NCBI GenBank assembly: GCA_028687545.1
Contig: JAQTZZ010000034.1
Coordinates: 1 to 45,821 of the forward strand
Origin: Candidatus Wallbacteria bacterium
GTDB lineage: Bacteria > Muiribacteriota > JAQTZZ01
Reading direction: 5' to 3'
Length of the DNA stretch: 45,821 nt
Position 1 is the first letter of the stretch. Each line of letters starts with the position of its first letter. Shown in pieces: positions 5,220 to 32,828 of the stretch. A program made the position numbers and the translations under genes. A model generated the notes under the pieces. That model was not told the origin of the DNA. It worked only from the letters and a program-made list of their open reading frames with translations, and did no database searches.

Positions 5220-7451
5220 TCAGGGTGAACTCTTCGCTTTCAACCTGGCGGAGATGACGCCGGTGATGCTGCAGCTCGCCAGCACATCAAGCACTGTTGC
5301 GACCGGCTCGATGATCGGCTGCACTGCCATCAGAAAAACGATGGCTACCGATGAAGGCAGGCCGAGAGGCGCCAGCACCAGGCTCAACATCGGTATCTCG
5401 CTGACACTGGACGCGCCTGTGCCTGCGAGACCGGAAAGCACCACTCCCAGGATTACGAAAGCCCAGGCATTGTTGTTCCAGAGCGAGACGCCGTAAAGCT
5501 GGGCCACAAAGACAGTTCCCAGGGAAAAGAGGATGAAGGTCGAGGGGCGGGAAATCGTAATTCCAAGAGGCATCACGAGCTTCGAAGTCTGCAGATCGAT
5601 CCCGAGGTTCCGGTCCATTCCTTCAATGGATAAAGGCATGGCTGCATAACTGTTGAATGTGCCAAAAGCCACCACCAGGGATTCTTTCAGGGCGAGAAAA
5701 ACCTTTACTATCGATATTCTGCATGATCCGGCAAGTGCGATCGCTGAAACAAAGATAAAAATCAGGCTGATTACGTGATAAATCACGATAAATCTGGTCA
5801 TTGCCATCAGGATTCCGGGACCGATGTTGGAGATCTGCTTTGCCATCAGGCAGAACAGCATTGGCGGCAGAAGATACATGGACCAGTTGATGATCTGGAG
5901 AAATGCGTTGAAAAGAGTATCCAGAAAATTGATGATCTGATTGCTGGTCTCGTTGCGGATCAGGCCAAGGGACAGCCCGAAGATGACTGAGAAAAAGAGC
6001 ACTCCCAGAAAATCTCCCTGGCTTAAGGCCGTAAAAATATTGGCAGGTATCAGGCGCAGCAGAATTTCGGAAGGTTTGGTGATCGAATTCCCGTTGATTG
6101 CTTCAGACAGTTCAGTCTTGTGCAGTTCGCTTCCCAGAAGGTCTCTGGAAATGCGGCTGAGTGAGGACCCCACTTTTCCGACTACCCCGCAGAAAATTCC
6201 TGAGAGAGTGGCAGTCACGATCACTGTAAGCATCAGGATCAGCAACAGCTTGACGTATCTGCCGGCCTGGTCTGAACGGAAAAGCTTGCCCAGGCTGGCC
6301 ATGATCGCAGTCAACATGATGGGCAGCGCGCACATCTGCAGCAGTGTAAGATACAGGTCTCCCAGCATTTCGAATTTTCCCAGGCGATGGGGCAGGAAAA
6401 TACCGAAAAGTATTCCAAGAGTCAAGCCCAGAAAGACAGTCCATGGGCTGAGCAACCAACCAAATTGCTGCAAGGGAGTGATTTTCCTGCCCTTACTCTG
6501 AAGGTAATAACCCACTAAAACGATAATGAAAAGCAGCATGGCTGCCAGCAGTCTGTTGTGACTCAGTTTTGAATCCGTTGAAGCCGGTTTGATCAGAACC
6601 CCTGAAGCCGACTGGATCCGGCTTTTTCTCCCTGCTATCTTGTCCTTTGCATCAGTAGAATAACGATCCAGCTGAAATTGCAGATCCCGGTTGAGAAACA
6701 GATTGAAATCCAGCAGGAAGAGATTGATCCATTCCAGCAGTTTGCTGCAATCCTGTGGTACAACCATGGCAATTCTGTCGAGCCGTTTCGGGAAAGCCAC
6801 TTTTTTGAATGCCAGGGAAAGCGACGGATCTTCCCTGATGGAATTTTCAATTGCCAGTTCATCGTAAAATGCGGCGGTCAGTTCCCCGCTTCTGGCGGCG
6901 CTCAATACCGAGTCCCAATTTTTAAAGCCGGCGATTGAAGCATTGGGGAATTCTTTTTTTACAAATTCCTGGTAAGAAGAATTTTCAAGGAACCCGATTT
7001 TAACATCCGGGTTGTTCAGCAATGTGTCCACTGTCTGACCTGGTTTCTGCTCTGCGATCTTCCGCTGATCCAGTAAAACCGCCATCTGCAATATAAAATA
7101 AGGCTGGGTGAAAGCGACCTTCTTCGCCCGTTCCAGGGTGATGCTGAGATTTGAAATTCCAAGATCAGCTTTGTGCTCTGCCACCCGGCTGACAACGTCG
7201 TCAAAACTCTCTGCAGAATGATCGATCTGCAGTTTCACTCCAAGTGCCAGGGCGATTTCACTGGCAAGGTCAATGTCTATTCCTTTATATTCACCTTTGT
7301 CGTCGAGATAGTAAAAAGGCGGAGTTTCCAGCCTGCACATTGAAACCACCAGCATTTTCCGCTCCAGGATCCCTGAGAGATCGGTTTGAGCGTCAGCCTG
7401 GCACTGAAAGCAGAGAAAAGACAGCAAAATCAGTCTCAAAAACCATTTCAT
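5220..7451 (-). CDS. Fusion of solute-binding protein family 3 and SDF/DAACS elevator transporter (copy A)
   Basis: From the ATG at 7451 the product has 743 residues: a signal sequence, a periplasmic SBP_bac_3 domain (about 22-270) with FYYLDDKGEYKGIDIDLA and the SITLERAKK amino-acid-binding segment, a linker, one membrane helix (about 301-317), and a complete SDF domain (about 332-735). The start was chosen because GGAGG lies about 10 bases upstream and the ATG shares one base with the upstream stop (TGATG). The transporter half departs from the family: the NMDG ion-site motif is SRPST (634-638), and the last helix has Gln711, Glu715, Ala718, Asp722 and Ser726 where GltPh has D390, D394, R397, N401 and D405. 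Losing the Arg that binds acidic side chains argues against glutamate or aspartate as substrate. Confidence 0.85.
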   Translation of the reverse strand: MKWFLRLILLSFLCFQCQADAQTDLSGILERKMLVVSMCRLETPPFYYLDDKGEYKGIDIDLASEIALALGVKLQIDHSAESFDDVVSRVAEHKADLGISNLSITLERAKKVAFTQPYFILQMAVLLDQRKIAEQKPGQTVDTLLNNPDVKIGFLENSSYQEFVKKEFPNASIAGFKNWDSVLSAARSGELTAAFYDELAIENSIREDPSLSLAFKKVAFPKRLDRIAMVVPQDCSKLLEWINLFLLDFNLFLNRDLQFQLDRYSTDAKDKIAGRKSRIQSASGVLIKPASTDSKLSHNRLLAAMLLFIIVLVGYYLQSKGRKITPLQQFGWLLSPWTVFLGLTLGILFGIFLPHRLGKFEMLGDLYLTLLQMCALPIMLTAIMASLGKLFRSDQAGRYVKLLLILMLTVIVTATLSGIFCGVVGKVGSSLSRISRDLLGSELHKTELSEAINGNSITKPSEILLRLIPANIFTALSQGDFLGVLFFSVIFGLSLGLIRNETSNQIINFLDTLFNAFLQIINWSMYLLPPMLFCLMAKQISNIGPGILMAMTRFIVIYHVISLIFIFVSAIALAGSCRISIVKVFLALKESLVVAFGTFNSYAAMPLSIEGMDRNLGIDLQTSKLVMPLGITISRPSTFILFSLGTVFVAQLYGVSLWNNNAWAFVILGVVLSGLAGTGASSVSEIPMLSLVLAPLGLPSSVAIVFLMAVQPIIEPVATVLDVLASCSITGVISARLKAKSSP

Positions 7452-9643
7452 CAGGTTTTCACCTCCACCTGTTCCGCTACCAGGCTTGTAATGCTGCAAT
7501 TGGTAATCACATTCAGCACAGTGCGGATCGGGTCAGTGATCGGGTCAACGGCCAGCAGCAGGATCAGGGCAACAGACAGCGGGAGGCCGAGAGGCGTGAA
7601 AATAACGGCCAGGGCGGAAATTTCAATGGCACTTGGAGCTCCTGCTGCGGAAAGACCTGCCAGAACTGCACCGAAAAAAATCAGCAGCCAGCGATAATGT
7701 TCAAAAATCGGGACTCCGAACAGCTGTGAGATAAAGACAGTGCTCAGAGCAAGATTGATGATCGTGCCCGGCCTGCAGATGGTGATTCCCAATGGCATCA
7801 CCAGATTGGTGGTCTTGCTCTGCAAATTGAATTTGGAAATCAGGCTGTTGATGGCAAAAGGCATCGCCGCATAACTGCTGAAAGTGCCGAAGGCCACCAG
7901 CAGCGATTCTTTGAGAGTGATGAAAGGCTGATAAAAAGGCGCTTTCAGAGTTCTGGACAATATCCATCCCATCCCCAGGATGAAAATGATGCAGATCAGG
8001 TAATAAATCGCGACAAAACGGCCCATGGCAAGCATGATGCTCAGCCCGGTGTTTGAGACCTGTTCCGCCATCAGGCAGAACAGGGCAGGAGGCAATACAT
8101 ACATCGACCATTCGATAATCTTTAAAAACGCATGAAAGACTGTTTCCATAGCCTTGAATATATGGTCGCTGGCTTTTTCATTCACAAAGGCGAGTGACAC
8201 TCCAAACAGGATCGAAAATACCAGCACGCTCAAAACGTCTCCATTGCTTAGTGCGGCAAAGATATTTTCCGGCAGCAGGCGTTTGACAAAACCGTATTTT
8301 TCTCCATTTTGATCAGGCTGGTTTCCCTTCTCCAGCTCCCCTTTATGCAGCTTATGCCCGAGAATTATCCGATCCTTTTCACTGAGCATGGTCCCTGGTT
8401 TCCCGGCTGCTCCTCCGAACAGGCCGCAGAAGCTGGCAAGGAACAGGAACATCAGCATCAGAAGCAGTAATTTACGCAGCTGTGTGATGGCATCGCTTGA
8501 CTTGAACAACTGCCCCAGGCTGGACATGATCGCAGTGATCATGATCGGCAGGGCGCACATCTTCAAAAGCGTCAGGTACAGCCCGCCGATAAATGCTATT
8601 TTTCCTGTGCTCTCTTTGAAATAATATCCAAAGAAAGCCCCGAGTATCATGGCTGAGAGAACAGTCCAGGGGCTCAACAGCCATCTAAGACAGAAGGCAT
8701 ATCCGCAGCGGCTGTGTTTGTAGCAGGCTAGCGCCGAGGCAATACAGGCCAGCAGGATCAGAATGATCAGGTATGACCTGTCGCTTTCCCTTGGCTCATT
8801 CTGGTCGACAGCCTGGCTCACCACACCGGTTTCAGTTATTTTCATCACCTGAATATAATCGTCGAAATGCGACCTCAGGTCCTGCTTGACTGGATTCATT
8901 TCCAGAAAATGCCTGACCCATTCCAAGAGCAGCGGTGTCCGCAGAGAAACGGCGATTGCGATCAGATCCAGTTTATCTTTCAGGATCAGAGAACCGAACC
9001 TGAGGGATAGTGCTGGATTTTCGCGGATGCTGCGCTCTATCACTGTCTCATCATAAAAAGCCACATCAATCTCCCCTTTGCCTGCCGCTGCAACTGCGCC
9101 TTCCCATTCCTGAAAGCTGATGATTTTCGCATTGGGGAATTGTTCCCTGGAAAATTCTTCGTATGAAGAGTTTCCTAAAATCCCGATCCTGGTCTGCGGT
9201 GTGTTCAACAAATCCTGCAGGGTCTGGCCGGGCTTCAATTCAGCCATTTTCAGATGATTGATCAGCAGCGCCATATGCAGAGAGAAATACGGCTGTGTGT
9301 AATAAACTTTTTTTGCCCGTTCCAGAGTGATCGACAATTCGGAGACAGCGAGATCAGCCTCACCGGAAATCACTTTATCCACCACTGAATCGAAAGAGGG
9401 TGACTCGCGATTCAATTCCAGTTTCACACCCAGTTTGTCGGCAATATTCCTGGCTATTTCAATGTCGATTCCCTGAAGATTCCCGGACCTGTCAGTATAA
9501 AAAAAAGGCGGCACATCTATTTTATAAAGTGCGATCACGATTTTACCGCGGTCTATGATCCCTTGAATGTCGGGATTGACGAAATCCGCTGCTGCTAAAA
9601 GAAAAGCGTAAAAAATAAAAACCAGCAGAAAGTTTCTGAACAT
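7451..9643 (-). CDS. Fusion of solute-binding protein family 3 and SDF/DAACS elevator transporter (copy B)
   Basis: This paralogue of the next gene has 730 residues from the ATG at 9643; a TTG at 9649 is also possible, and neither has a strong ribosome-binding site. The order is signal peptide, SBP_bac_3 domain (about 25-265, with FFYTDRSGNLQGIDIEIA and SITLERAKK), a single helix (about 290-308), then an SDF domain (about 320-725). The NMDG motif reads CRPGT (623-627). The last helix keeps Asp700, Asp704, Arg707 and Asn711, matching the substrate ligands of GltPh, but the sodium-site Asp405 equivalent is Asn715. The retained Arg suggests an acidic amino acid or dicarboxylate. It is coupled to copy A by a one-base stop/start overlap. 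Nucleotide-level divergence shows an old duplication. Confidence 0.85.
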   Translation of the reverse strand: MFRNFLLVFIFYAFLLAAADFVNPDIQGIIDRGKIVIALYKIDVPPFFYTDRSGNLQGIDIEIARNIADKLGVKLELNRESPSFDSVVDKVISGEADLAVSELSITLERAKKVYYTQPYFSLHMALLINHLKMAELKPGQTLQDLLNTPQTRIGILGNSSYEEFSREQFPNAKIISFQEWEGAVAAAGKGEIDVAFYDETVIERSIRENPALSLRFGSLILKDKLDLIAIAVSLRTPLLLEWVRHFLEMNPVKQDLRSHFDDYIQVMKITETGVVSQAVDQNEPRESDRSYLIILILLACIASALACYKHSRCGYAFCLRWLLSPWTVLSAMILGAFFGYYFKESTGKIAFIGGLYLTLLKMCALPIMITAIMSSLGQLFKSSDAITQLRKLLLLMLMFLFLASFCGLFGGAAGKPGTMLSEKDRIILGHKLHKGELEKGNQPDQNGEKYGFVKRLLPENIFAALSNGDVLSVLVFSILFGVSLAFVNEKASDHIFKAMETVFHAFLKIIEWSMYVLPPALFCLMAEQVSNTGLSIMLAMGRFVAIYYLICIIFILGMGWILSRTLKAPFYQPFITLKESLLVAFGTFSSYAAMPFAINSLISKFNLQSKTTNLVMPLGITICRPGTIINLALSTVFISQLFGVPIFEHYRWLLIFFGAVLAGLSAAGAPSAIEISALAVIFTPLGLPLSVALILLLAVDPITDPIRTVLNVITNCSITSLVAEQVEVKT

Positions 9644-15931: not shown

Positions 15932-17014
15932 ATGAAAATCCTTGTAATCAATCCCGGTTCCACTTCCACAAAAGTAGCCGTCTTTGAAGACGATAAACTT
16001 TTGTTCGACGAAACTCTCCGGCATTCCTCTGAACAGCTCAAGGCCTTTCCTGACATATTCTCGCAGCAGGATTTCAGGAAAAAAATCATCCATGATTTTC
16101 TCTCCAAACACAACCTGAAAATGTCTGATTTCGCAGGCATCGCCGCCCGCGGCGGACCGCTGCCGCCATCTGAGGGCGGAACCTACATAGTAGACGAGAA
16201 CCTGCTCTTTGCCACCCGCAATCTCTATGTCACTGAGCACCCATCACTCCTTGCGGCGTTGATCGCCGCTGATCTCGGCAAGGAAGCAAACCTCAAATCC
16301 TATATTGTGGACCCGGTCTCAGTGGACGAATGGCATGAGCTGTCGAGATTTTCCGGCATGCCTGAACTTCCCCGCATCAGCCTCTCTCATGCGCTGAACA
16401 TGAGGGCTGTGGCGAGAAGGACCGCCAGGGACCTTGGAAAAAAATACGAAGAATTGAATCTGATCATCATCCATCTTGGTGGCGGGATCTCAGTTTCTGC
16501 CCATGAAAAAGGCCGCCAGATCGATGCCAATAACGCCAATGAGGATGGACCATTTTCACCTGAACGAACAGGCACGCTGCCTGTAAGCCCTCTTGTCAAA
16601 CTTTGCTTTTCAGGCAAATACAGCCTGCAGAAGATGAAGAATCTGATTGTCAGGGAAGGCGGCATGACAGCCTATCTAGGTATTAACGATGTCAAGGAAG
16701 CTTTGAAACTGGCAGATTCCGGCGACCAGAAAGCCAGGTCTGTCTTGGACTCCATGATCTACCAGGTAGCCAAGGAAACCGGCAAAATGGCGGTGGTTCT
16801 GAAAGGAAAAATTGATGCAATCGCTGTCAGCGGCGGGATTGCTTATAATGAATCGCTCGTGAAAATTCTGAGAGAAAGGATCGAGTTCCTCGGGCCTGTC
16901 AGGGTCTACCCTGGGGAGGACGAGATGGAAGCACTGGCTCTAGGGACGCTGCGAGTATTGCGCGGCGAGGAAAAGGCCAAAAATTTCGCCTGCAAAGCCG
17001 ACTCTATTCGTTGA
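15932..17014 (+). CDS. buk: Butyrate kinase, copy 1
   Basis: This 360-residue protein of the acetokinase family phosphorylates ADP from butyryl-, isobutyryl- or related acyl-phosphates, releasing the acid. The N-terminal phosphate-binding strand is LVINPGSTSTKVAVF, and the family's IAARGG (71-76), SLSHALNMRAVARR and LGGGISVSAH segments are present, followed by a NEDGPFSPERTG loop and a C-terminal PGEDEMEALALG. Length is that of butyrate rather than acetate kinase, which is about 400. The ATG follows GGGGGAA. It is transcribed alone, converging on a CoA-transferase gene with a shared terminator. A second copy at 20446 lies in the ptb/vor operon, so this one may serve a different acid or condition. 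Confidence 0.92.
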   Translation: MKILVINPGSTSTKVAVFEDDKLLFDETLRHSSEQLKAFPDIFSQQDFRKKIIHDFLSKHNLKMSDFAGIAARGGPLPPSEGGTYIVDENLLFATRNLYVTEHPSLLAALIAADLGKEANLKSYIVDPVSVDEWHELSRFSGMPELPRISLSHALNMRAVARRTARDLGKKYEELNLIIIHLGGGISVSAHEKGRQIDANNANEDGPFSPERTGTLPVSPLVKLCFSGKYSLQKMKNLIVREGGMTAYLGINDVKEALKLADSGDQKARSVLDSMIYQVAKETGKMAVVLKGKIDAIAVSGGIAYNESLVKILRERIEFLGPVRVYPGEDEMEALALGTLRVLRGEEKAKNFACKADSIR

Positions 17015-17074
17015 GCCTCATACAAAATGACCATTTCTCGGTTACTTACGCAAGGACATTTTGTTAGAGGCTCA
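17012..17074. terminator. Bidirectional terminator whose arms contain both stop codons
   Basis: TGAGCCTC at 17012-17019 pairs exactly with GAGGCTCA at 17067-17074, and inside that CAAAATG at 17023-17029 pairs with CATTTTG at 17057-17063. The left arm begins with the TGA of butyrate kinase (17012-17014). The right arm ends with the TGA of the minus-strand gene (17072-17074). The stem is long and symmetric, as expected for a terminator shared by convergent genes. Confidence 0.7.
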
Positions 17075-18301
17075 CGGGACATAAACAGACACAGCTTTTT
17101 CCTCCACCAGCCGGGCAACCAGTTCATCCTGATATCCGAGAGTATTTTTTAAAATTTCACGCGTATGCTGACCAGGCTCTGGAGCGCTTTCCGCCATTTC
17201 AGGCTGCAGACTTTGGTCAGTAAAGCCTGCGGGGAAACCTGAAAGCTTTAAAACTCCATATTCCTCGTCTTTCACTTCCCTGACCAGTCCGAGGTGATTG
17301 ATCTGCTCATTGCCCGCCGCCTCCTCGAGACTGGAAACAGCAGTAAAGCAGCAGTCGCAACCAGAAAGCAATTGTTCCCACTCAAAAAGCGCTTTGGACC
17401 CTATCAGCTTCTTCAATTCTGCCGTCAACTTTTCCGCATCTTTTCCATCTAAAGCAATCAGGTCTTCTCTTCCAGACCTGACGCAGAAATTCTTGAAAAG
17501 GTTCGGTTCAATCGGCCCGAAAAAGACACTTTTGCAGTCCCTGGTCAAATACATCCTGTAATTCGGAAGACCTCCGTTCAGAAGTTCTTTCCCGGGAAGC
17601 GGGGACCTTCCAGTCGCATTCAGTGCTGACAGATAAATCTGGTTCAGAAAAAACGCTGCATGGAGCATTGACACATCCACAGTGTCAGCACGAAAACTGC
17701 TTTTCGCATTTTTCTTCCCCAGAGCGGATGCAACAGCCATCAATGCCGCAAGATATCCGGCAGTGATGTCAGCTATCTGAACAGAGAAAACACTTGCAGT
17801 TTTTTCATCAGTGATCGGCGTATAACTCAGAACACCGCTCATGGAAAGAATGTTGTTGTCATGGCCTGCCATTTTTTTCAGGGGACCATGCAATCCGAAT
17901 GCGGTTATCGGGAGATGCACTATTTCGCTGTTGAGTTCGGAAATTTTTCCACCCAGGATGTCGGTGAGAAAGTCTGCTCTGTTGCCGTCAATCAGAATGT
18001 CGCACTTTCTGATCAAGTCGCTCAGTACATCAACACCCCCTTTTTTCTTGAAGTCAACCACTATACTCTGGAATCCCTGATTGATGGCGTGAAAGTATGC
18101 ACTTATCCTGCCTTTTTTTCCGGAAATGAAAGGAGGAAGCTTTCTCATGTAATCGAACTGAGGAGGTTCAATCTTGATGATCTCCGCACCGAGAGCTTTG
18201 AGCAGAAAGGCAGCTAACGGCCCCGGAATGTAATGGGCGATCAGCAGCACTCTGATACCGGAAAGCCAGTCAATCCTGGGAGGCTTGTTTTCAGCAGTCA
18301 T
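17072..18301 (-). CDS. Family III CoA-transferase / alpha-methylacyl-CoA racemase superfamily (CaiB/BaiF)
   Basis: The ATG at 18301 with GGAG five bases upstream gives 409 residues. The start has the family pattern LSGIRVLLIAHYIPGPLAAFLLKALGAEIIKIEPP. KKMAGHDNNILSMSG holds His147 and Asp148; in racemases such as MCR and AMACR the His of the GHDxN motif is a catalytic base, and Asp178 in QIADITAGYL matches the second racemase base. CoA-transferases of the family use an Asp nucleophile near the same place, so both activities are possible. Next to butyrate kinase and the branched-chain oxoacid operon, epimerising or transferring CoA to 2-methyl-branched acyl groups is a reasonable guess. It is convergent with butyrate kinase 1 and divergent from the ptb operon. 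Confidence 0.8.
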   Translation of the reverse strand: MTAENKPPRIDWLSGIRVLLIAHYIPGPLAAFLLKALGAEIIKIEPPQFDYMRKLPPFISGKKGRISAYFHAINQGFQSIVVDFKKKGGVDVLSDLIRKCDILIDGNRADFLTDILGGKISELNSEIVHLPITAFGLHGPLKKMAGHDNNILSMSGVLSYTPITDEKTASVFSVQIADITAGYLAALMAVASALGKKNAKSSFRADTVDVSMLHAAFFLNQIYLSALNATGRSPLPGKELLNGGLPNYRMYLTRDCKSVFFGPIEPNLFKNFCVRSGREDLIALDGKDAEKLTAELKKLIGSKALFEWEQLLSGCDCCFTAVSSLEEAAGNEQINHLGLVREVKDEEYGVLKLSGFPAGFTDQSLQPEMAESAPEPGQHTREILKNTLGYQDELVARLVEEKAVSVYVP

Positions 18302-18357
18302 AAAATCTCCTTTTCCCGGCAAGTCGTCATCTGAATCAGTTCCCTGTTTAAATCGAC

Positions 18358-18387
18358 TTGCTAATTAAAAGTATATTGAGATAAAAT
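18358..18387 (+). promoter_or_regulatory. Candidate sigma-70 promoter of the ptb-buk-vor operon
   Basis: TTGCTA at 18358-18363 and TAAAAT at 18382-18387 are spaced by 18 bases. The predicted start near 18394 gives a leader of about 114 bases that contains two hairpins. Confidence 0.5.
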
Positions 18388-18406
18388 AGGAATGTCCAAA
18401 TCTTTT

Positions 18407-18460
18407 TCTCATCTGCCCGGGAGTAGATGAGACATATTCCTTGGTTTGGGGATCAAGGAA
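18407..18460 (+). promoter_or_regulatory. Two tandem hairpins in the ptb leader
   Basis: TCTCATCT at 18407-18414 pairs with AGATGAGA at 18425-18432, and TTCCTTG at 18437-18443 pairs with CAAGGAA at 18454-18460. Both have a 10-base loop or spacer and lie four bases apart. They sit between the promoter candidate and the ATG at 18508. They could be a structured RNA leader or two operator sites with identical spacing. No known riboswitch was recognised. Confidence 0.5.
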
Positions 18461-18507
18461 AATGAGAAGGACAGAAAGTTTACTATTTTTCTAAAGGGGG
18501 AAATCTC

Positions 18508-19404
18508 ATGATGACTAAAATGCAGCAAGTTGTCGATGCAGCCAAAAAAGGTACCAAGAAAAAGATTGCCGCTGCCTGCGCCCACGATGAAGACGTACTT
18601 CTTTCTCTGAATAGAGCCGTCGGCGAAGGCATTGTCACTCCAATCCTGGTCGGCCATAAAACTGAAATCGAGGCTTTGATCAAAAAACTCGGACTCAATA
18701 ATCTCAACGCCGAGATCATCGATTGTGAGACAGAAGCTGAAGCCGCTGAAATCTGCGTGAAAAAGGTTTCGCAGGGAGAAGCTCATCTTCTGATGAAGGG
18801 ACTGATGGCCACATCAACCATGCTCAAAGCTGTACTCAATAAAGAATGGGGTTTGAGAAAAGGCGACTTGCTAAGCCACATAGTACTCATGGAGCCTGAA
18901 AACCAGGAAAGGCTCATTGTGATTACTGATGCAGGCATGAACATCAAACCTGACCTCTCCCAGAAAAAAATGATCATTGAAAATGCGGTTGAACTTGCCC
19001 ATAAGCTTGGAATTCAGACACCCAAGGTTGCTCCTCTCTGCGCAATCGAGACTGTCAATCCGGACATGCAGGCCACTATCGACGCCGCGATTCTTTCCAA
19101 AATGGCGCAGCGCGGACAGATCAAAGGCTGCCTTGTGGACGGCCCTCTGGCCATGGACAATGCAGTCTCAGTGGAGGCTGCCAAGCATAAGAAGATAGTC
19201 AGTGAAGTTGCGGGACACGCCGACATACTCCTGGTTCCGGATATCGAGTCCGGAAACATCCTGTATAAAGCCATGGGATTCCTGACCTCAGCCCATCTCG
19301 CAGCAATCATCACAGGCGCAAAGGTTCCAATAGTATTGACATCCCGCGCCGACTCAGATGAAACCAAATTCCATTCCATTGCCCTGGCAGTGGCAGTTTC
19401 CTAG
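18508..19404 (+). CDS. ptb: Phosphate butyryltransferase, copy 1
   Basis: The 298-residue product belongs to the phosphate acetyl/butyryltransferase family and converts acyl-CoA plus phosphate to acyl-phosphate and CoA. It has the family LLMKGLMATSTMLKAVLNKE block, IVITDAGMNIKPDL, VAPLCAIETVNPDM and the C-terminal DGPLAMDNAVS segment. Length is typical of Ptb. The ATG at 18508 (ATGATG) follows AGGGGGAAA. It heads an operon with a second ptb, a second butyrate kinase and a branched-chain oxoacid oxidoreductase; the gap to ptb2 is eight bases. The acyl substrate is probably a branched-chain acyl-CoA, judged by context. Confidence 0.92.
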   Translation: MMTKMQQVVDAAKKGTKKKIAAACAHDEDVLLSLNRAVGEGIVTPILVGHKTEIEALIKKLGLNNLNAEIIDCETEAEAAEICVKKVSQGEAHLLMKGLMATSTMLKAVLNKEWGLRKGDLLSHIVLMEPENQERLIVITDAGMNIKPDLSQKKMIIENAVELAHKLGIQTPKVAPLCAIETVNPDMQATIDAAILSKMAQRGQIKGCLVDGPLAMDNAVSVEAAKHKKIVSEVAGHADILLVPDIESGNILYKAMGFLTSAHLAAIITGAKVPIVLTSRADSDETKFHSIALAVAVS

Positions 19405-19412
19405 GCGGAAGC

Positions 19413-20300
19413 ATGACTTGGAAGGAAATCATCGATAAAGCGAGAAGCAGCGGAAAAATCGGGGTGGCTGTAGCCTGCGCAGATGACTCTGTCGTGCTTT
19501 CGGCCTTGAAAAAAGCCAAAGACGAAGGCCTGATCGAGGGGCTGCTCGTAGGCAACCGCCAGAAGATCGAAGCTGAACTCAAGACTCTCTCGATTCCTTT
19601 GACGGATTTTGAAATTATTGAGGCGAAAAATGATTCTGAGGCAGCCGCAGTCTCAGTCAACCTGGTCAGGCAGAATCGCGCCAAAGCCCTGATGAAGGGC
19701 ATGATCAGCACCTCCACCCTGCTGAAGGCAGTGCTGGATAAAGAGCAGGGGTTGCGCAGCGGAGGGCTGTTGAGTCATATCCTGGCTGCGGAAATCAGGA
19801 TGCGGATGTTTTTTGTAACAGACGGAGGGATGAATCTTTACCCCGACCTGGCCCAGAAGGTCAAGATCATCGAAAATGCAGTGGACATTGCCTGTCGTCT
19901 GGGAATCCCTTGTCCGAAAGTGGCCCCATTGTGCGCTGTGGAAACTGTGAATCCCGACATGCGGGCCACACTCGACGCCGCACAGCTTGCCAAGATGGCT
20001 GAGCGCGGCCAGATCAAGCGCTGCATCATCGACGGGCCGCTAGCTCTTGACAATGCTGTATCTATGGAAGCAGCTAAGCACAAGAAGATCAGCGGACCTG
20101 TAGCAGGGCTCGCAGACATCCTGCTCGTTCCACAGATTGACGCAGGCAACATTCTCGGGAAATCGCTGATCTATTTCGCGCATGCAGCAGTAGGAGGAAT
20201 CATCGCCGGGGCCGCGGCACCGGTCATCCTTCTCTCGCGGGCCGACGATGATGCCACCAAGTTCAATTCCATCTGTCTGGCCAAGGCGGTAATGTGCTGA
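19413..20300 (+). CDS. ptb: Phosphate butyryltransferase, copy 2
   Basis: A tandem paralogue of ptb1 with 295 residues, it keeps ALMKGMISTSTLLKAVLDKE, FVTDGGMNLYPDLAQK, VAPLCAVETVNPDM and DGPLALDNAVS. Protein similarity to copy 1 is high but the DNA has diverged, so the duplication is not recent. The two copies could form hetero-oligomers or prefer different acyl chain shapes, such as isobutyryl against isovaleryl. The ATG follows GCGGAAGC, eight bases after the ptb1 stop. The gene is followed by a gap of 145 bases that holds a palindromic repeat. Confidence 0.9.
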   Translation: MTWKEIIDKARSSGKIGVAVACADDSVVLSALKKAKDEGLIEGLLVGNRQKIEAELKTLSIPLTDFEIIEAKNDSEAAAVSVNLVRQNRAKALMKGMISTSTLLKAVLDKEQGLRSGGLLSHILAAEIRMRMFFVTDGGMNLYPDLAQKVKIIENAVDIACRLGIPCPKVAPLCAVETVNPDMRATLDAAQLAKMAERGQIKRCIIDGPLALDNAVSMEAAKHKKISGPVAGLADILLVPQIDAGNILGKSLIYFAHAAVGGIIAGAAAPVILLSRADDDATKFNSICLAKAVMC

Positions 20301-20322
20301 TGAAATGTAAGGATGAAATAGA

Positions 20323-20353
20323 TTGTAGGGGCGTTGCATGCAACGCCCGTACG
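20323..20353. repeat. REP-like palindromic element between ptb2 and buk2
   Basis: GGGCGTTGCATGCAACGCCC at 20329-20348 is a perfect 20-bp palindrome flanked by TTGTAG and CGTACGAA. A related element with TTGTA(A/G)GG ends occurs at 26644-26675. Such short palindromes are typical of REP-like or miniature mobile elements. Inside the operon it could act as an RNA stability hairpin or a partial terminator. Confidence 0.6.
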
Positions 20354-20445
20354 AATATAGTATGGAATCTGTAATCTCGCTGTAGCCTCCGGGGAAATGG
20401 GCAGTATGATCCGAGGTTTTCGATTTTCTGCAATTCGGAGGAAAA

Positions 20446-21519
20446 ATGAAGCAGTACCGGCTCCTGGTGATCAATCCAGGTTCCACTTCCACCAAGACCG
20501 CTGTCTACGAAGGAGACAAGGAACTTTTTTCCGAAACGATCAGGCACGATCACAATGAAATTGAAAAGTATCAGAAAATCATCGACCAGTATGAATTCCG
20601 CTCCAAAATCATCGAATCCCAGCTCAGACAGAAAGGTATTGAACTGTCATCTCTGGATGCTGTAGTAGCCAGAGGTGGACTTCTGAAACCCATCAGAGGC
20701 GGAGTATTCGAGGTCAACGAAAAGATGATCTCTGACCTGAAAAAAGCCGAGCGCGGTGAACATGCCTCCAACCTGGGCGCCATCATCGCCCGTGACCTGG
20801 CAGCCAAGATCAAAAAGCCATCCTATATTGTCGACCCGGTAGTGGTGGACGAAATGGACGACATCGCCAGGCTCTCAGGACTCCCGGAAATCGACCGCAT
20901 TTCCATCTTCCATGCCCTCAATCAGAAAGCCACTGCCAGAAGAGCAGCCAGGGAACTTGGCAAAAAGTATGAGGACATCACCCTGATCGTGGCTCACATG
21001 GGTGGAGGAATTACCATCGGTGCCCATAAAAAGGGAAGGGTGATCGATGTCAACAACGGCTTGAACGGCGACGGTCCTTTCTCACCTGAGCGCACAGGCG
21101 ACCTGCCTGTTTCATCTCTTGTGAAAATGTGTTTTTCAGGCAAATACACTGAGCCCGAGATTCAGAAAAAGATCAAGGGCAAAGGTGGCCTGATGGCTTA
21201 CCTGAACACTGCTGATGCCAGAGAAGTGGAGAAAATGGTGGATAAGGGCGATAAAAAAGCCGCTTTGATTTACGAAGCAATGGCTTATCAGGTGGCCAAG
21301 GAGATCGGTGCTCTCTCCACAGTGCTCTGCGGAAAAATTGACGGCATCGTGCTCACAGGCGGCCTGGCCTATGACAAACGGTACATCAAGTGGATCACCG
21401 ACAGGGTATCGTTCCTCGGCAGGGTATTCGTCTATCCTGGCGAAGATGAGATGGAAGCCTTGAGGGACGGCGGACTGCGCGTACTGTCGGGCGAGGAAAC
21501 CGCCAATGGATATAACTGA
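20446..21519 (+). CDS. buk: Butyrate kinase, copy 2
   Basis: The 357-residue product parallels copy 1, with LVINPGSTSTKTAVYEGDKE at the start, VARGGLLKPI, FHALNQKATARRAA, MGGGITIGAHKKGR, the DGPFSPERTGDLPVSSL loop and PGEDEMEALRDGG near the end. It performs the ATP-forming last step of the route laid out in this operon. GGAGG lies close before the ATG. The last 14 bases overlap the start of the next gene, an ATPase, which suggests coupled translation. The two kinases are clearly paralogous but diverged. Confidence 0.92.
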   Translation: MKQYRLLVINPGSTSTKTAVYEGDKELFSETIRHDHNEIEKYQKIIDQYEFRSKIIESQLRQKGIELSSLDAVVARGGLLKPIRGGVFEVNEKMISDLKKAERGEHASNLGAIIARDLAAKIKKPSYIVDPVVVDEMDDIARLSGLPEIDRISIFHALNQKATARRAARELGKKYEDITLIVAHMGGGITIGAHKKGRVIDVNNGLNGDGPFSPERTGDLPVSSLVKMCFSGKYTEPEIQKKIKGKGGLMAYLNTADAREVEKMVDKGDKKAALIYEAMAYQVAKEIGALSTVLCGKIDGIVLTGGLAYDKRYIKWITDRVSFLGRVFVYPGEDEMEALRDGGLRVLSGEETANGYN

Positions 21520-22213
21520 CGGCAAAAGGCTGACCGTGATCAGCGGAGCCTTTGGCACCGGAAAGACCGAGATCGCCATCAACCTGGCCCTGAAGCTGCG
21601 GGAAGCAGGTGTGGAAAAAGTCTTTCTCGTCGACCTGGACATTGTGAACCTCTTTTTTCGCTCCAGGCAGAAGGCCTATGAATTAAAGAAAAAAGGTATC
21701 CGGGTCATCTCCAGTCAGGAAGGCATGGAAAATGCAGACCTGCCTTCTCTTTCACCGGAAATCGCAGACAGCTTCGCCCAGGAAGACAGTACAGTTGTTT
21801 TTGATCTGGGCGGATCAGAGCTCGGCGCCACGGTGCTTTCCAGGTTTCACCAGGAATTCATCGGACAGTCATACAATCACTGGCTGGTGGTGAATCCTTA
21901 CCGGCCTTTCAACGAAAAAAACGAAGACACCCTGGAGATGGCGGAACAGATCGCGGTTCGCGCGCGCCTTCCAATCACAGGAATGATCGCCAATCCCCAC
22001 CTGCTGGACGAGACAACCCCCGACATCATCAGGGAAGGATTTGCTCAAGTCAGAAAAATCGACAGATATCCGCTGCTTTACCTGTCCGTGATGGACAGTT
22101 ATCTTTACTCCGGTCTGGACCGGGAATTCGATGTGCCGGTAATGGTTATCGGCAAACAGATGAAACAGCCATGGGAAGAAGGGGGAATTCTTATCTCAGG
22201 AAAGGGGGATTAA
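21506..22213 (+). CDS. P-loop NTPase of the MinD/CobQ (SIMIBI) type
   Basis: The 235-residue product starts with a Walker A loop, SGAFGTGKTEIA (13-24), followed by VDLDIVNLFFRSR, where MinD- or CobQ-like proteins have their switch I Asp, and VFDLGGSELGATVL at the Walker B/switch II place. It lacks the signature Lys of the deviant MinD Walker motif. The 5' end overlaps buk2 by 14 bases and the stop abuts vorD, so it belongs to this operon. It could assist assembly or metal/iron-sulfur loading of the oxidoreductase, or regulate it, but no sequence feature proves this. Length and motif order resemble stand-alone cobyrinate-synthase-like NTPases. Confidence 0.7.
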   Translation: MDITDGKRLTVISGAFGTGKTEIAINLALKLREAGVEKVFLVDLDIVNLFFRSRQKAYELKKKGIRVISSQEGMENADLPSLSPEIADSFAQEDSTVVFDLGGSELGATVLSRFHQEFIGQSYNHWLVVNPYRPFNEKNEDTLEMAEQIAVRARLPITGMIANPHLLDETTPDIIREGFAQVRKIDRYPLLYLSVMDSYLYSGLDREFDVPVMVIGKQMKQPWEEGGILISGKGD

Positions 22214-22414
22214 ATGCCAAAGATCGTGATCAAGGAAGAAATCTGCAAGGGGTGCGCACTCTGCGTCCGTCTCTGCCCTAAAAAAGTAATTAAAATCGGA
22301 ACCCAGCTCAATGCAAAAGGCTACCATCCTGCGGTTTATGCCGGCGACGGCTGCATCGCCTGCCGTGCCTGCGCCATGACCTGTCCTGATGTGGCAATCG
22401 AAATATTCAAATAA
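22214..22414 (+). CDS. vorD: Ferredoxin-like delta subunit of 2-oxoacid:ferredoxin oxidoreductase
   Basis: The 66-residue protein has two [4Fe-4S] motifs: C11, C14, C17, C21 and C47, C50, C53, C57. It is the small electron-transfer subunit in four-subunit VOR/KOR enzymes, passing electrons from the TPP-binding subunit to free ferredoxin. The ATG immediately follows the stop of the ATPase gene. Together with the alpha, beta and gamma subunits that follow without gaps, this identifies the complex; the exact oxoacid is inferred from the branched-chain fermentation context. Confidence 0.88.
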   Translation: MPKIVIKEEICKGCALCVRLCPKKVIKIGTQLNAKGYHPAVYAGDGCIACRACAMTCPDVAIEIFK

Positions 22415-22423
22415 GGGGGTTTG

Positions 22424-23479
22424 ATGAGCAAGAAAGTGCTGATGAAAGGAAACGAGGCCATCGCCGAAGCCGCGGTCAGGGCCGGCTGCAAACTGTACTT
22501 CGGCTATCCGATCACTCCGCAGAGCGAGATCCCGGAATACATGTCGCGCCGTCTCCCCAAGATCGAGGGAGGCGCATATATCCAGGCCGAGACTGAAGTC
22601 TCTGCGATAAATATGGTTTATGGTGCTGCTTCCACCGGCAAACGCGCCATGACGTCTTCATCCTCTCCAGGCGTAAGCCTGATGATGGAAGGGATTTCCT
22701 ACCTGGCGGGAGCTGAGTTGCCCTGCCTGCTGGTGAATATCATGCGCGGCGGACCAGGGCTTGGGAACATCAACCCTGAGCAGGCCGACTATTTCCAGGC
22801 TGTGAAAGGAGGTGGACACGGCAGTTACCATCTGATCGTGCTGGCCCCGTCTTCTGTCCAGGAAATGGCGGATCTGACTGTCGAAGGTTTCAACCTTGCG
22901 GATAAATACAGGAATCCTGTGATGGTGGTGGCTGAAGGCAATCTGGGTCAGATGATGGAACCAGTCGAATTCAAGGAAAGCTATCCTCAGACAGTCGATC
23001 ATTCAGCCTGGGCTCTTACTGGAGCTAAAGGCCGGCCCGGACATGTGGTGACCTCGATCTACCTCGCCGCAGAGGACATGGAGAAATACATCCAAAAACT
23101 TTACAGGAAATATGATCTGATCGAAAAAACTGAAGTCCGCTACGAGGAATTCATGATGGATGACGCGGAGGTAGTGCTGGTGGCCTATGGAATAGTCTCC
23201 CGCGTGGTGCGGAACGTAGTGGAAGCCCTGCGCGAAGAGAAGATCAAGGCAGGCATGATCAGGCCGATCACGCTCTGGCCCTATCCCAAGGACATCATCC
23301 GGAAACGGGCGGATCAGGCGAAGTTTTTCCTGACCTGCGAAATGTCCACAGGCCAGATGGTGGAAGACGTGCTGCTGTCGGTGAACGGCAAGAAACCTGT
23401 TTACTTTTACGGCCGCTTCGGGGGGATGGTCCCCACTCCCGCCGAGATAGTGGCTGAAGTAAAAAAATATTATAAATAG
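22424..23479 (+). CDS. vorB: 2-oxoacid:ferredoxin oxidoreductase alpha subunit (VorB type)
   Basis: The 351-residue product (ATG at 22424 after AGGGGG) is the pyrimidine-binding/domain III subunit. GCKLYFGYPITPQSEIPEYM, the AETEVSAINMVYGAASTGKR block and SSPGVSLMMEGISYLAGAE are typical of VorB and KorA. The NIMRGGPGLGNINPEQADYF stretch is the longest match to the 3-methyl-2-oxobutanoate dehydrogenase subunits. The family oxidises 2-oxoisovalerate and related acids to acyl-CoA, CO2 and reduced ferredoxin. 2-Oxoglutarate enzymes are close relatives, so the branched-chain call leans on the ptb and buk genes upstream. Confidence 0.88.
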   Translation: MSKKVLMKGNEAIAEAAVRAGCKLYFGYPITPQSEIPEYMSRRLPKIEGGAYIQAETEVSAINMVYGAASTGKRAMTSSSSPGVSLMMEGISYLAGAELPCLLVNIMRGGPGLGNINPEQADYFQAVKGGGHGSYHLIVLAPSSVQEMADLTVEGFNLADKYRNPVMVVAEGNLGQMMEPVEFKESYPQTVDHSAWALTGAKGRPGHVVTSIYLAAEDMEKYIQKLYRKYDLIEKTEVRYEEFMMDDAEVVLVAYGIVSRVVRNVVEALREEKIKAGMIRPITLWPYPKDIIRKRADQAKFFLTCEMSTGQMVEDVLLSVNGKKPVYFYGRFGGMVPTPAEIVAEVKKYYK

Positions 23480-23487
23480 GGGGAAAA

Positions 23488-24243
23488 ATGGAAAAGATAT
23501 TTCAGAAAACAAGGGGCTTGAACGACAGGATTTTCCATTACTGCCCGGGCTGCGGGCATGGCATAGCGCATAGAATGGTGGCAGAGTCGCTAGAAGAGCT
23601 CTCCCTCCTGGAAAAAACCGTGATGATTTCCCCGGTAGGGTGCTCAGTCTTCCTCTACTGGTATTTCCAGACCGACAATGTGCAGGCTTCCCACGGACGG
23701 GCGCCTGCTGTTGCTACAGGGCTCAAGCGTGCAAACCCTGGCTCGATTGTGGTTTCATACCAGGGCGATGGAGACCTGGCATCCTCCGGCACGGCTGAAA
23801 TCATCCACGCAGCTGCCAGGGGTGAGAACTTCACTGTGGTCTTCATCAACAACGCGATCTACGGCATGACAGGCGGGCAGATGGCTCCAACAACCCTGGT
23901 AGGCCAGAAGAGCTCCACTTCGCCCTACGGCAGGGACCCGAAATTCGCTGGCTATCCGATACACGTGTGCGAAATGCTGGCCACGCTGAAGGCTCCTCGC
24001 TATATCGAGCGCACGGCCCTGAACAATGTAGCCAACCTCAATAAAACCAAAAAGGCCATCAGGAAGGCCCTGGAACTGCAGGAAAAGGGTGAGGGATTCT
24101 CGTTCGTGGAAATTCTCTCCCCCTGCCCGACTAACTGGGGTCAGAGTCCTGATGAAGCGATGAAATGGCTGGAAGACAACATGATTCCGGAATATCCGCT
24201 GGGCGTATTCAGGGACGCCAAACCCGGGGAGGTGAAAGCATGA
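23488..24243 (+). CDS. vorA: 2-oxoacid:ferredoxin oxidoreductase beta subunit, TPP-binding (VorA type)
   Basis: The 251-residue product has the TPP- and Mg-binding signature GDGDLASSG (93-101) with Asn121/Asn122 and IYGMTGGQMAPTT. CPGCGHGIAHRM at residues 19-30 gives Cys ligands found in the domain. It carries the catalytic thiamine diphosphate of the complex. The ATG follows GGGGGAAAA. The stop TGA overlaps the ATG of the gamma subunit by four bases, so translation of both should be coupled. Confidence 0.88.
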   Translation: MEKIFQKTRGLNDRIFHYCPGCGHGIAHRMVAESLEELSLLEKTVMISPVGCSVFLYWYFQTDNVQASHGRAPAVATGLKRANPGSIVVSYQGDGDLASSGTAEIIHAAARGENFTVVFINNAIYGMTGGQMAPTTLVGQKSSTSPYGRDPKFAGYPIHVCEMLATLKAPRYIERTALNNVANLNKTKKAIRKALELQEKGEGFSFVEILSPCPTNWGQSPDEAMKWLEDNMIPEYPLGVFRDAKPGEVKA

Positions 24244-28331: not shown

Positions 28332-29156
28332 TCATTCCCAGATAAATTTTCCGCTCCCGGCAGCTTCCAGGCAATACCCGCAATCAAAATAGCGCTCCCT
28401 GGTCGATCCTATGGCACGCCTGAAGCTTTTTCTGATACTCTTCAATTCTGACGAACTGGAAAGTTCCAGAATTCCTCCACCAGAACCGCAGCATTGCACT
28501 CCGGCAGCTCCGGTAAATTTATTCGAAAATCCCAGCCCCTGTGCCAGGCAGGAGAAGAACACATTTTCTTTTGTCTGAAAATTCATGACTTCGAGATAGT
28601 ACCTGACTTCAAAGTCCAGTTCATGTCGCAGCATTTTCCAGAATCCATAGCAATGAGGACAGGCGAATACAATCATCTTGAATGCCGAGAAATAGTTTCG
28701 CAGCTCTTCAATTTTCTCCACCGGGTCCTGCCCGGTCAGGAAGTGCGGCCAGCCGCAACAGTTCAGTTCATCGATCTGATAATGTAAGTCTGCCAAAGCG
28801 TTGAACAGCTTTTTTTTCCGTTTCTCAGGCAGATCCGAGATCCTGCAGCCGAGAAATAAAAGCGTCTCGGATCCGCATTCATGCGGATCAAAAGGCTTAG
28901 ATAACGCAGAGCTGAAAAACCTTGACTTCTTCGAAAATACAGGCAGTTTTTCCAGAAGTTTTTTCCTGATCTGAATCCCGGGCGGGCAGGTTTTTTCGCA
29001 TTTCCCACATAATGTGCAGAGCTGGGGATTGAAACCGTTTTCTATCAGCTTCAGCATCCCCCGGGGAGAATGGCGCTCTATAGGAAAAAGCTTGTAAACC
29101 GGGCAGTTTTCAGCACAAAGATTACATTTCAGGCAGTTAGAAGGATTTATTTTCAT
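28332..29156 (-). CDS. GlcF/LutA-like iron-sulfur subunit with CCG domains
   Basis: From the ATG at 29156 (GGGGAAAG upstream; an ATG at 29168 is also open) the product has 274 residues. Two [4Fe-4S] motifs occur near the start: CLKCNLCAENCP and CTLCGKCEKTCPPG. They are followed by two CCG motifs, NCCGWPHF and VQCCGSGGG, of the type that binds an extra cluster in HdrB, GlpC and GlcF. It should pass electrons from the FAD-binding partner, encoded immediately upstream in the operon, to a quinone or other acceptor. It is shorter than E. coli GlcF (about 400). The gap to the partner gene contains a tandem repeat. Confidence 0.75.
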   Translation of the reverse strand: MKINPSNCLKCNLCAENCPVYKLFPIERHSPRGMLKLIENGFNPQLCTLCGKCEKTCPPGIQIRKKLLEKLPVFSKKSRFFSSALSKPFDPHECGSETLLFLGCRISDLPEKRKKKLFNALADLHYQIDELNCCGWPHFLTGQDPVEKIEELRNYFSAFKMIVFACPHCYGFWKMLRHELDFEVRYYLEVMNFQTKENVFFSCLAQGLGFSNKFTGAAGVQCCGSGGGILELSSSSELKSIRKSFRRAIGSTRERYFDCGYCLEAAGSGKFIWE

Positions 29157-29190
29157 TTCTTTCCCCATTGCTTACCAGCCGATTGTCTTG

Positions 29191-29294
29191 AAAGTGATCG
29201 GTGAATGGTGAAAAGTGATTGGTCAGAAAAGATAATGCCATTCCTATCTCCCACTTCCCATTCCCCATTCACTATTCACTATTCACTATTCACT
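29191..29294. repeat. Tandem and inverted GTGAATA/TTCAC repeat between glcF and glcD
   Basis: The right part repeats CACTATT-type units (CATTCACTATTCACTATT) and the left part GTGATCGGTGAATGGTGAA is its inverted form, so a long imperfect hairpin can form. The end of the repeat supplies the last codons and the TAG (29286-29288) of the upstream glcD-like gene. It is A/T-rich, unlike the GC-rich elements at 24785 and 26840, but the architecture is the same. Confidence 0.6.
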
Positions 29295-30647
29295 TATAAT
29301 CTTCCCCGGATTGAATATCCCCTGCGGGTCAAATATTGCTTTCACTTCCTTCATCAAGTTGACAGCATCTTTCCCCAGGTTTTTCTTCAGAAAACCCCGC
29401 CGTTCGATGCCGATTCCATGTTCGCCCGAAACAGCTCCGCCAAGATCCAGAGCGATTGCATGCAGTTTTGCAAAAAGGAGCTTTGTTTCTGTGACTTCCG
29501 ACTTATCGTCAGGAGAGAACAGAACATTGGGATGAAGGTTGCCGTCCCCGATGTGCCCGAAAAGAACGAACTGCACCTTGAATCTGGAATGCAGCTTTTC
29601 CACTTTCGAGACAAAATCCTGAAGACGGGCTCTGGGTACGACCAGGTCTCCGCCAAGTACGCCTGGTCTGAGATTGGCGAAGGCAGACATCAGCCCCTTG
29701 CGCCAGCGCAGGAACTCGTTTCCATTGTCTGTGCTTTCCGTAAAATCCAGGCGATTTTTTCCTGCAAATTTTCTCACCATATTCCAGGCTCCGTCGATTT
29801 TTTCCACGCTTCTGCCGTCCAGTTGAATCAGCACAGCATATGGATTGTCTCTCTTCCAGTTCGCTTTTTCCCGCAACTCAACAGCTTTCTGGCATGTCTG
29901 GTCCATAAATTCCAGGATGGCAGGAGTGATTCCCCGGCCTGGTAAGAACTTGAAGCCGAATTCAGTAAGCAGCTTCAAATCCCTGAATCCAAGATAAGCG
30001 GTCCTGAATGCCAAAGGCGCTGGAATCACCCTGAGAGTGATTTCTGAAATCAGCCCGAGCGTCCCCTCGGCTCCGCAGAACAGCTGATGCAGCGGATATC
30101 CGAGCGCGTAGCGCAGGTTTTTCGTGCCAAGTATAATTTCCCTGCCTTGATGATTGATGTATTTCAGGCCGAGCAGATAACTCCTGGTTGTACCGTATTT
30201 CAGGGATCTGATACCGCCTGCATTGGTGGAAAGATTGCCCCCGATGGTGCAGACTGAGGCTGAAGCCGGATCAGGCGGGTAATAAAATCCAGATTCAAGG
30301 CAGAATTTCTTGAGTTCACCTGTAATCACGCCGGGTTGAACTGTGACCATCATGTTTTCAGGGGAAAATTCCAGAATTTTCCGCATCTTTTCGAATGATA
30401 CAACGATCCCAGGTTTAACGGCGAGCGGCGAGCCGGTCATGGCAGTCCCTGCTCCCCTCGGATAAACCGGCAGGCTCTGTTTTGAGCAGTATTTAACGAT
30501 CTTTGAAAGATCGGAAGACGATTCCGGCCAGCAGACTGCCAGCGGTTTAGATTCATGTGGGGAAGCGTCGTAGCTGTAAAGAAGCCTGTCTGAATCCAAG
30601 CTCGAAAAATCGATCTTCAATCGTGAAAAATCTTCAAAGAGCTTCAT
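29286..30647 (-). CDS. FAD-binding 2-hydroxyacid oxidase subunit (GlcD/D-lactate dehydrogenase type)
   Basis: The 453-residue product has the PCMH flavin fold: YPRGAGTAMTGSP (62-74), TIGGNLSTNAGG (134-145), IRSLKYGTTRSYLLGL, and the C-terminal substrate/FAD domain with FGHIGDGNLHPN and AVSGEHGIGIERR. It oxidises D-lactate, glycolate or D-2-hydroxyglutarate; the exact acid is not decidable here. The ATG overlaps the stop of the sodium-pump beta subunit by four bases, so it is part of that operon. The end of the gene lies in a tandem repeat. The GlcF-like subunit follows. Confidence 0.82.
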   Translation of the reverse strand: MKLFEDFSRLKIDFSSLDSDRLLYSYDASPHESKPLAVCWPESSSDLSKIVKYCSKQSLPVYPRGAGTAMTGSPLAVKPGIVVSFEKMRKILEFSPENMMVTVQPGVITGELKKFCLESGFYYPPDPASASVCTIGGNLSTNAGGIRSLKYGTTRSYLLGLKYINHQGREIILGTKNLRYALGYPLHQLFCGAEGTLGLISEITLRVIPAPLAFRTAYLGFRDLKLLTEFGFKFLPGRGITPAILEFMDQTCQKAVELREKANWKRDNPYAVLIQLDGRSVEKIDGAWNMVRKFAGKNRLDFTESTDNGNEFLRWRKGLMSAFANLRPGVLGGDLVVPRARLQDFVSKVEKLHSRFKVQFVLFGHIGDGNLHPNVLFSPDDKSEVTETKLLFAKLHAIALDLGGAVSGEHGIGIERRGFLKKNLGKDAVNLMKEVKAIFDPQGIFNPGKIISE

Positions 30648-32125: not shown

Positions 32126-32502
32126 TATTCCAGTTCCACGAGAGACTGGCCGAATTCCACTTTCTGGCCTTTTTCACAGAGCACCTTCTTCACGCGCCCG
32201 GCTTTGTGCGAATAGAGATTCGTATTCATTTTCATGGCCTCGATCACAACAGCCAGCTGGTTTTCAGTGATGCTCTGCCCTTCCGTGACTTTGACCTCGA
32301 TGATAGTGCCTGCGAGCGGGCTCTTGATGGAAGTTTCCAATGCGTCAGCCACTATTTTCTGCGATTTTTCAAATGATCTGGCCAGATTCTGCGAGGATTC
32401 CTCAACCACTCTCTTCACAACGGCATTTTTCCCCTTATCCTCCAGGATTTCCACTTCCACTTCATATGTCTTGCCTTCAACAGTGATCCTTAGTCTCTTC
32501 AT
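32125..32502 (-). CDS. Biotin carboxyl carrier subunit of the sodium-pump decarboxylase
   Basis: The 125-residue protein has the biotin attachment motif EAMKM with Lys91, in a classical lipoyl/biotinyl domain (about 56-125) with SPLAGTIIEVKVTEGQ and SHKAGRVKKVLCEKGQKV. The N-terminal 50 residues form a small beta region and a helical, charged linker instead of the usual Ala/Pro-rich one. It carries CO2 between the carboxyltransferase and the membrane beta subunit. It overlaps both neighbours (start 32502 against gamma stop 32499; stop 32125 against beta start). Confidence 0.9.
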   Translation of the reverse strand: MKRLRITVEGKTYEVEVEILEDKGKNAVVKRVVEESSQNLARSFEKSQKIVADALETSIKSPLAGTIIEVKVTEGQSITENQLAVVIEAMKMNTNLYSHKAGRVKKVLCEKGQKVEFGQSLVELE

Positions 32503-32828
32503 TTATCGCGTCCTTTCGAAATATTCTGATTCATGAGTTCCACTTTTCCCTCGAATGACCACAACGTGTTGAACTGTCTCCTCTCCTTGACCAGCACTAT
32601 TTTTTTCAGTTCAAAGCTCTCGTCCAGAACTGCAGTAGCCGCTGCAGCGATCACTGCGATCAACCGCCTCTCTTCTTCTGTCGATGGTCCTGAGCCTGGA
32701 AAAAGCTGTCCGGGTTTCTGGAGATAGGAAAAAAGGTGGATCACGAAAGCGAGCAGACAGAGTGCCACGAAAACCACACCCATTCCCAGCAGTGTCAGTT
32801 CCAGCCCGAAAAGCAGATTGGTCATCAT
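32499..32828 (-). CDS. Sodium-pump decarboxylase gamma subunit (OadG family)
   Basis: The 109-residue product has one N-terminal membrane helix (about 7-31: GLELTLLGMGVVFVALCLLAF) and a cytoplasmic tail with AVIAAAATAVLDE, typical of OadG/MmdD proteins, which assemble the carboxyltransferase with the membrane subunit. The first ATG (32828) overlaps the stop of the carboxyltransferase (TGA, 32827-32825) with four bases; ATG at 32825 is the next codon and equally possible. A GGGGTGATG motif precedes it. Low sequence conservation in this family limits confidence, but gene order makes the call secure. Confidence 0.82.
   Translation of the reverse strand: MMTNLLFGLELTLLGMGVVFVALCLLAFVIHLFSYLQKPGQLFPGSGPSTEEERRLIAVIAAAATAVLDESFELKKIVLVKERRQFNTLWSFEGKVELMNQNISKGRDK

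Follow-up and report, generated by a model that had tools for sequence, protein, structure and literature searches.

Tandem genes for fused binding and carrier proteins

The window, that is the whole stretch of 45,821 nucleotides analysed here, is one contig of a 97%-complete genome and contains two tandem genes whose products join an amino-acid-binding domain of the SBP_bac_3 type to a carrier domain of the SDF/DAACS type. SBP_bac_3 proteins normally serve ABC importers, and in the GlnPQ-type ABC importers such domains are fused to the membrane part of the importer. Both genes, here termed B and A in their order of reading, are located on the minus strand and consist of the following features.

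7451-9643, minus: gene B, first of the pair, encoding fusion protein P0002 of 730 aa (open frame; Pfam SBP_bac_3 and SDF; orthologue L034 6781-8967)
8873-9643, minus: gene B, N-terminal hydrophobic start and SBP_bac_3 domain with ligand residues R109 and D198 kept (local profile match, residue check)
8711-8785, minus: gene B, inter-domain membrane helix, residues 287-311 (hydropathy; helix 289-310 in the model)
7472-8668, minus: gene B, SDF domain (Pfam PF00375, Foldseek)
7763-7777, minus: gene B, TM7 motif CRPGT replacing NMDGT (alignments)
7511-7546, minus: gene B, TM8 DPITDPIRTVLN with D394, R397, T398 and N401 retained in GltPh numbering (alignments)
5220-7451, minus: gene A, second of the pair, encoding fusion protein P0001 of 743 aa (open frame; Pfam SBP_bac_3 and SDF; orthologue L034 4529-6784)
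6675-7448, minus: gene A, hydrophobic start and SBP_bac_3 domain (local profile match)
6492-6569, minus: gene A, inter-domain membrane helix, residues 295-320 (hydropathy; helix 297-319 in the model)
5250-6443, minus: gene A, SDF domain (Pfam PF00375)
5538-5552, minus: gene A, TM7 motif SRPST replacing NMDGT (alignments)
5286-5321, minus: gene A, TM8 QPIIEPVATVLD with the substrate Arg R397 changed to Ala, D394 to Glu and N401 to Asp (alignments)

The open frames of both genes are intact and share one base (TGATG), which confirms the coupling noticed in the first-pass annotation of this DNA. A GGAGGT precedes the ATG of gene A at 7451; no strong ribosome site was found at the ATG of gene B at 9643. 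The two products are 44% identical. Pfam finds PF00497 and PF00375 together in each chain, with one SBP_bac_3 domain (E-values 1.7e-21 and 2.4e-21) and one SDF domain (7.7e-64 and 6.9e-76), the latter being full-length as PF00375 spans 3-386 of the 387 profile positions. In both proteins the order is a hydrophobic start, SBP_bac_3, a linker, one hydrophobic helix and the full SDF domain; Pfam, hydropathy and AlphaFold2 thus agree with the layout that had been read from the sequence before. That reading also included a signal sequence, to which the hydrophobic stretch at the N-terminus of both products may correspond. The Arg and Asp of PF00497 domains hold the carboxylate and amino groups of an amino acid, and both residues are retained in the SBP_bac_3 domains according to the residue check.

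AlphaFold2 single-chain models, which describe the monomers and were calculated from an alignment without rows from plasmid records, have a mean pLDDT of 84.3 for P0002 and 78.8 for P0001. Both consist of the binding domain, a disordered linker, the helix and the SDF fold, and the domains are confident in both models. In Foldseek searches with the P0002 model the membrane part resembles glutamate transporters and the outer part an amino-acid-binding protein. The best match of the SDF part is described as an "ancestral uncoupled aspartate transporter", further matches are GltPh, GltTk, EAAT3 and ASCT2, and the outer part matches an ancestral amino-acid-binding protein. The N-terminus of SDF domains is cytoplasmic. 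From this known topology, the extra helix would be needed because a periplasmic binding domain has to be joined to an SDF domain that starts in the cytoplasm.

Conservation of the fusion

Candidatus Wallbacteria STB_16, which belongs to another genus of the same family, encodes a corresponding tandem pair, whose two genes share 4 bases (locus L034). Only one fusion copy is found in Candidatus Muiribacterium halophilum, so that the fusion is present in three genomes of two families. In the Muiribacterium copy (L006 1462-3636) one TAA stop interrupts the frame within the binding domain. Apart from it both halves are well conserved, and the stop is either a recent inactivation or a sequence error. 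The probability that a frameshift, an assembly error or a pseudogene has merged two genes is negligible: the genomes are metagenome assemblies and one copy contains the in-frame stop, but two independently assembled genomes of different genera contain four intact fusion genes that align over their full length. The joining of two genes by a frameshift or assembly error, which the first-pass annotation had named as a danger to its reading, was checked and is ruled out by these independent Wallbacteria assemblies. The five fused SDF domains are monophyletic in the tree (support 100/100), and a single fusion event which was later duplicated would therefore be the simplest history.

An unfused two-gene family

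As judged from sequence comparison, the fusion is a derived form of a wider family in which an SBP and an SDF protein are encoded by two genes. This ancestry was not part of the first-pass annotation, and neither was the loss of the ion-binding motif described below. A profile of the fusion proteins was searched against 382 genomes and revealed, beyond the three fusion genomes, one SDF outlier at 363 bits, followed by the next match at 165. The outlier is encoded in genome G127 and its gene is overlapped by an SBP_bac_3 gene. A pyridoxal-dependent decarboxylase gene is convergent to this pair (L049 5931-7549), a possible link to amino-acid use. Four more adjacent SBP-SDF pairs could be identified in plasmid records (Gemmobacter, two Paraburkholderia and one Cupriavidus).

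With a profile of the SDF clade, members above 300 bits were found in seven of 399 Pseudomonadota genomes, where canonical SDFs reach at most about 213 bits and are separated from the clade members by a clear gap. An eighth genome of that phylum, G436, contains the SDF in two pieces (214 bits). A clade member occurs in 18 of the 120 genomes from the family of G748 and in one of 44 from the phylum of G127. No clear member was found among the 193 genomes that represent the phylum of G214 and G067, the single match of 214 bits being at the canonical level. The phylum of G353 yielded no member among 7 genomes, a sample too small to show much, and among viral contigs no relative was found. The clade is rare and patchy and was sampled largely via metagenome assemblies.

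The unfused loci belong to two phyla, one of which is Pseudomonadota. All 21 testable unfused loci have a same-strand SBP_bac_3 gene next to the clade SDF gene, with a distance of 60-156 bp from domain to domain; the locus of G599 starts inside the SDF gene and was left out of this count. A same-strand SBP gene occurs at none of about 39 distinct canonical SDF loci (1.5 kb flanks). For a conservative count of 13/13 versus 0/41, Fisher's test gives 9e-13, a value which overstates independence as the loci are related. Two canonical loci (L078 and L079) do have an SBP gene nearby, which was rejected as an SDF partner due to its ABC type and its opposite strand. Several long frames were also rejected as fusions: those of G019, G015, G214, G371, G223 and G269 appear to be ordinary SDFs in extended or overlapping frames, and the 726-aa frame of G714 encodes an SDF on its own, the SBP being read in a different frame. 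A 1089-aa frame in G211 is a further candidate. G459 encodes two convergent SBP-SDF pairs (L082 3506-8043), an unfused counterpart of A and B. One of its SBPs is very divergent and resembles the second SBP of G475 (L084 5763-6563).

The missing ABC partner

As ABC importers are the usual partners of SBP_bac_3 proteins, the binding domain might serve an ABC importer in trans, with the SDF domain as a mere anchor. This is very unlikely. None of the three fusion genomes encodes a member of the polar-amino-acid ABC permease family TIGR01726, which 11 of 14 control genomes do contain, and the linkage to an SBP is confined to this branch of SDFs; on both grounds the ABC reading was rejected. GlnPQ-type importers differ from the fusions in the same respect, as they comprise an ABC permease and an ATPase in place of the SDF elevator. 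In Muiribacterium the fusion is the sole SBP_bac_3 match of the genome. The source genome has two such matches besides the fusions, C5:1843-2115 and C54:15512-16216, in frames of 717 and 270 aa.

A divergent SDF branch without the sodium motif

In the tree, the SBP-linked SDFs are found on one side of a branch with a support of 100/100 and a length of 1.6, with some caution due to the long end branches of Gemmo_2, L001 and L026. Most of the linked SBPs also cluster away from six ABC SBPs of E. coli (94/92). By sequence, these proteins are a divergent branch of the SDF/DAACS family (TC 2.A.23, SLC1 fold) rather than typical members.

Residues were compared for 24 clade and 40 canonical SDFs in an alignment with GltP and DctA of E. 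coli as anchors; positions follow GltPh numbering. In GltPh the loop N310-M311-D312 helps to coordinate all three sodium ions and the substrate (PMC12668577). The conserved NMD(G/T) loop in TM7 of the family is absent from both products. N310 is kept in 39 of the 40 canonical SDFs and absent in 20 of the 24 clade members; D312 occurs in no member of the clade. Arg or Lys occupies position 311 in 22 of the 24 clade members (Arg 21, Lys 1) and in no canonical protein. The TM3 residues Y89, T92 and S93 are mostly replaced in the clade as well. Since the sodium residues of TM7 and TM3 are gone, with Arg or Lys among the replacements, transport would probably not be sodium-coupled, and sodium coupling has probably been lost in the clade. 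The change of D405 was also considered as the loss of a sodium site and was dropped, because GltP and DctA have the same Asn as the clade members.

The loss of sodium coupling would be compatible with proton coupling, since some sodium residues (D405) are missing too from several canonical SDFs that couple to protons. The proteins might then be ordinary ion-coupled SDF carriers, driven by protons or still by sodium, with a binding domain that does no more than raise the affinity. The retained SDF fold, the substrate site kept in B and the Asn at 405 common to the proton-coupled GltP and DctA speak for such a carrier. However, N310 and D312, which GltP and DctA retain, are lost here, and the basic residue at 311 is specific for the clade. 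We consider this explanation unlikely.

Substrate site and operon context

In GltPh, R397 binds the side-chain carboxylate of the substrate and D394 its amino group (PMC12668577). As copy B keeps the substrate residues and those of copy A are changed, an acidic amino acid would seem to fit into B but not into A. The orthologue of copy A in the other genus has Gly at position 397, where the protein of the window has Ala. An Asp/Glu racemase gene separates two SDF genes in the operons of Burkholderiaceae and Gemmobacter, which points to acidic amino acids, perhaps in their D-forms, as putative substrates. The Burkholderiaceae operon of the order SBP-SDF-racemase-SDF is found inside a type VI secretion (T6SS) cluster (L059 1116-18017; also L060, L061 and L080).

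Such a context would also be compatible with a sensor or transceptor: an amino acid would be detected by the binding domain and a signal relayed through the transporter fold, and net transport would be slight or absent. Sensing was a speculation of Hug et al. (PMC8356804), the proteobacterial pair lies inside the T6SS cluster, and copy A has no substrate Arg. On the other hand, neither chain has a cytoplasmic signalling domain according to Pfam, the substrate residues are intact in copy B, and the racemase gene is paired with SBP-SDF genes in operons. A sensor is thus rather unlikely. The first-pass annotation had left the choice between a binding-protein-dependent elevator transporter and a transporter-derived sensor; the unfused pairs, the separate SDF branch and the absent permease favour the transporter, and the weakened sensor alternative is left above all for copy A.

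Proposed function

It is likely that A and B are single-chain, binding-protein-dependent and probably sodium-independent elevator importers of amino acids, because the fusion is conserved, SBP and SDF genes are linked, the SDFs form a separate branch and the ABC permease is missing. The loss of the substrate Arg in copy A and the rare, patchy and mostly metagenome-derived occurrence of the clade argue against an importer. The outer binding domain would capture the amino acid outside the inner membrane, tethered to the SDF domain by the extra helix, and would pass it to a trimeric SDF part that moves it by the elevator motion of glutamate transporters. The affinity would be supplied by the binding domain, and net uptake would be driven by intracellular consumption of the substrate or by another ion. 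For uncoupled SDFs it was proposed that intracellular substrate use sustains net uptake (PMC12668577). Copy A may carry another solute or act as a partner subunit. The earlier claim that both copies work together fits the gene order and overlap conserved in two genera; at the substrate site, however, the two are not equivalent.

The idea that a positive charge may substitute for sodium is familiar from sodium-independent carriers with other folds, and the fixed charge at position 311 would be a suggestive substitute of that kind. Tentatively, and with somewhat less than even confidence, the clade may be regarded as an unrecognised class of the SLC1 fold in which the basic residue 311 replaces a bound sodium ion and dependence on a binding protein has replaced dependence on an ion gradient.

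Comparison with known systems

To our knowledge, TRAP and TTT were the only secondary transporters known to use a binding protein before 2025. Like them, the proposed system would be a secondary transporter dependent on a binding protein; their membrane and binding-protein families are however unrelated to SBP_bac_3 and SDF, and none of DctP/TAXI, TctC, DctQM and TctAB is among the Pfam and NCBIfam hits of A and B. The nearest precedent, composed of unrelated families, is TAXI-GltS, for which Bordetella pertussis BP0403/BP0402 and fusions in Lachnospiraceae were described in 2025 (PMC12344293). There, too, a secondary amino-acid carrier of the elevator type is genetically linked to a binding protein, and some bacteria have the two as a fusion, but the partners are TAXI and GltS of the ESS family, and it is here that the ion motif is lost. 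SDF or DAACS are not mentioned in that paper, whose authors expected that further classes would test whether the elevator mechanism permits dependence on a binding protein (PMC12344293).

The DAACS/SDF carriers (GltPh, GltP, DctA and the EAATs) share the full SDF domain and fold with the clade, which differs by a binding domain fused or encoded next door, by the replaced NMD motif and by Arg or Lys at 311. AncInt and its descendants, the uncoupled SDFs that give the best structural match to the SDF part of B, demonstrate sodium-independent transport in that fold (PMC12668577, 2025). AncInt keeps the NMD motif, in contrast to the clade proteins, and a binding protein is not mentioned in that study. 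Bphy_5989-5992 in the T6SS-b cluster of Paraburkholderia phymatum encode unfused members of the same family as separate genes (SBP, SDF, Asp/Glu racemase, SDF). In that work the SBP is labelled as an ABC transporter, its partnership with the SDF protein went unrecognised, and the two symporters within the cluster were called intriguing (PMC8356804).

No paper on SBP_bac_3-SDF systems was found in the open-access full text, a search whose scope leaves a description in InterPro or subscription journals possible. With the binding protein either fused to the carrier or adjacent to it, this points to a kind of uptake system that is so far undescribed. As SDF, to which the human glutamate transporters belong, has been studied better than any other elevator family, the SBP-linked branch makes the elevator question directly testable against GltPh. 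The loss of the sodium motif on this very branch ties binding-protein dependence to the loss of ion coupling and is relevant to how sodium coupling arose (PMC12668577).

Further genes of the contig

Genes of an amino-acid-fermentation type are found at 15932-24243 and 28332-34360 of the window. They comprise parts of a 2-oxoacid:ferredoxin oxidoreductase, two phosphotransbutyrylase-like and two butyrate/acetate-kinase-like genes, a CoA-transferase III and a sodium-pumping decarboxylase (OAD_beta, carboxyltransferase and biotin carrier). Their predicted functions would fit an import of amino acids and prove nothing. On the minus strand, an open frame of about 3,680 aa extends from 34753 to 45819 and reaches the end of the contig.
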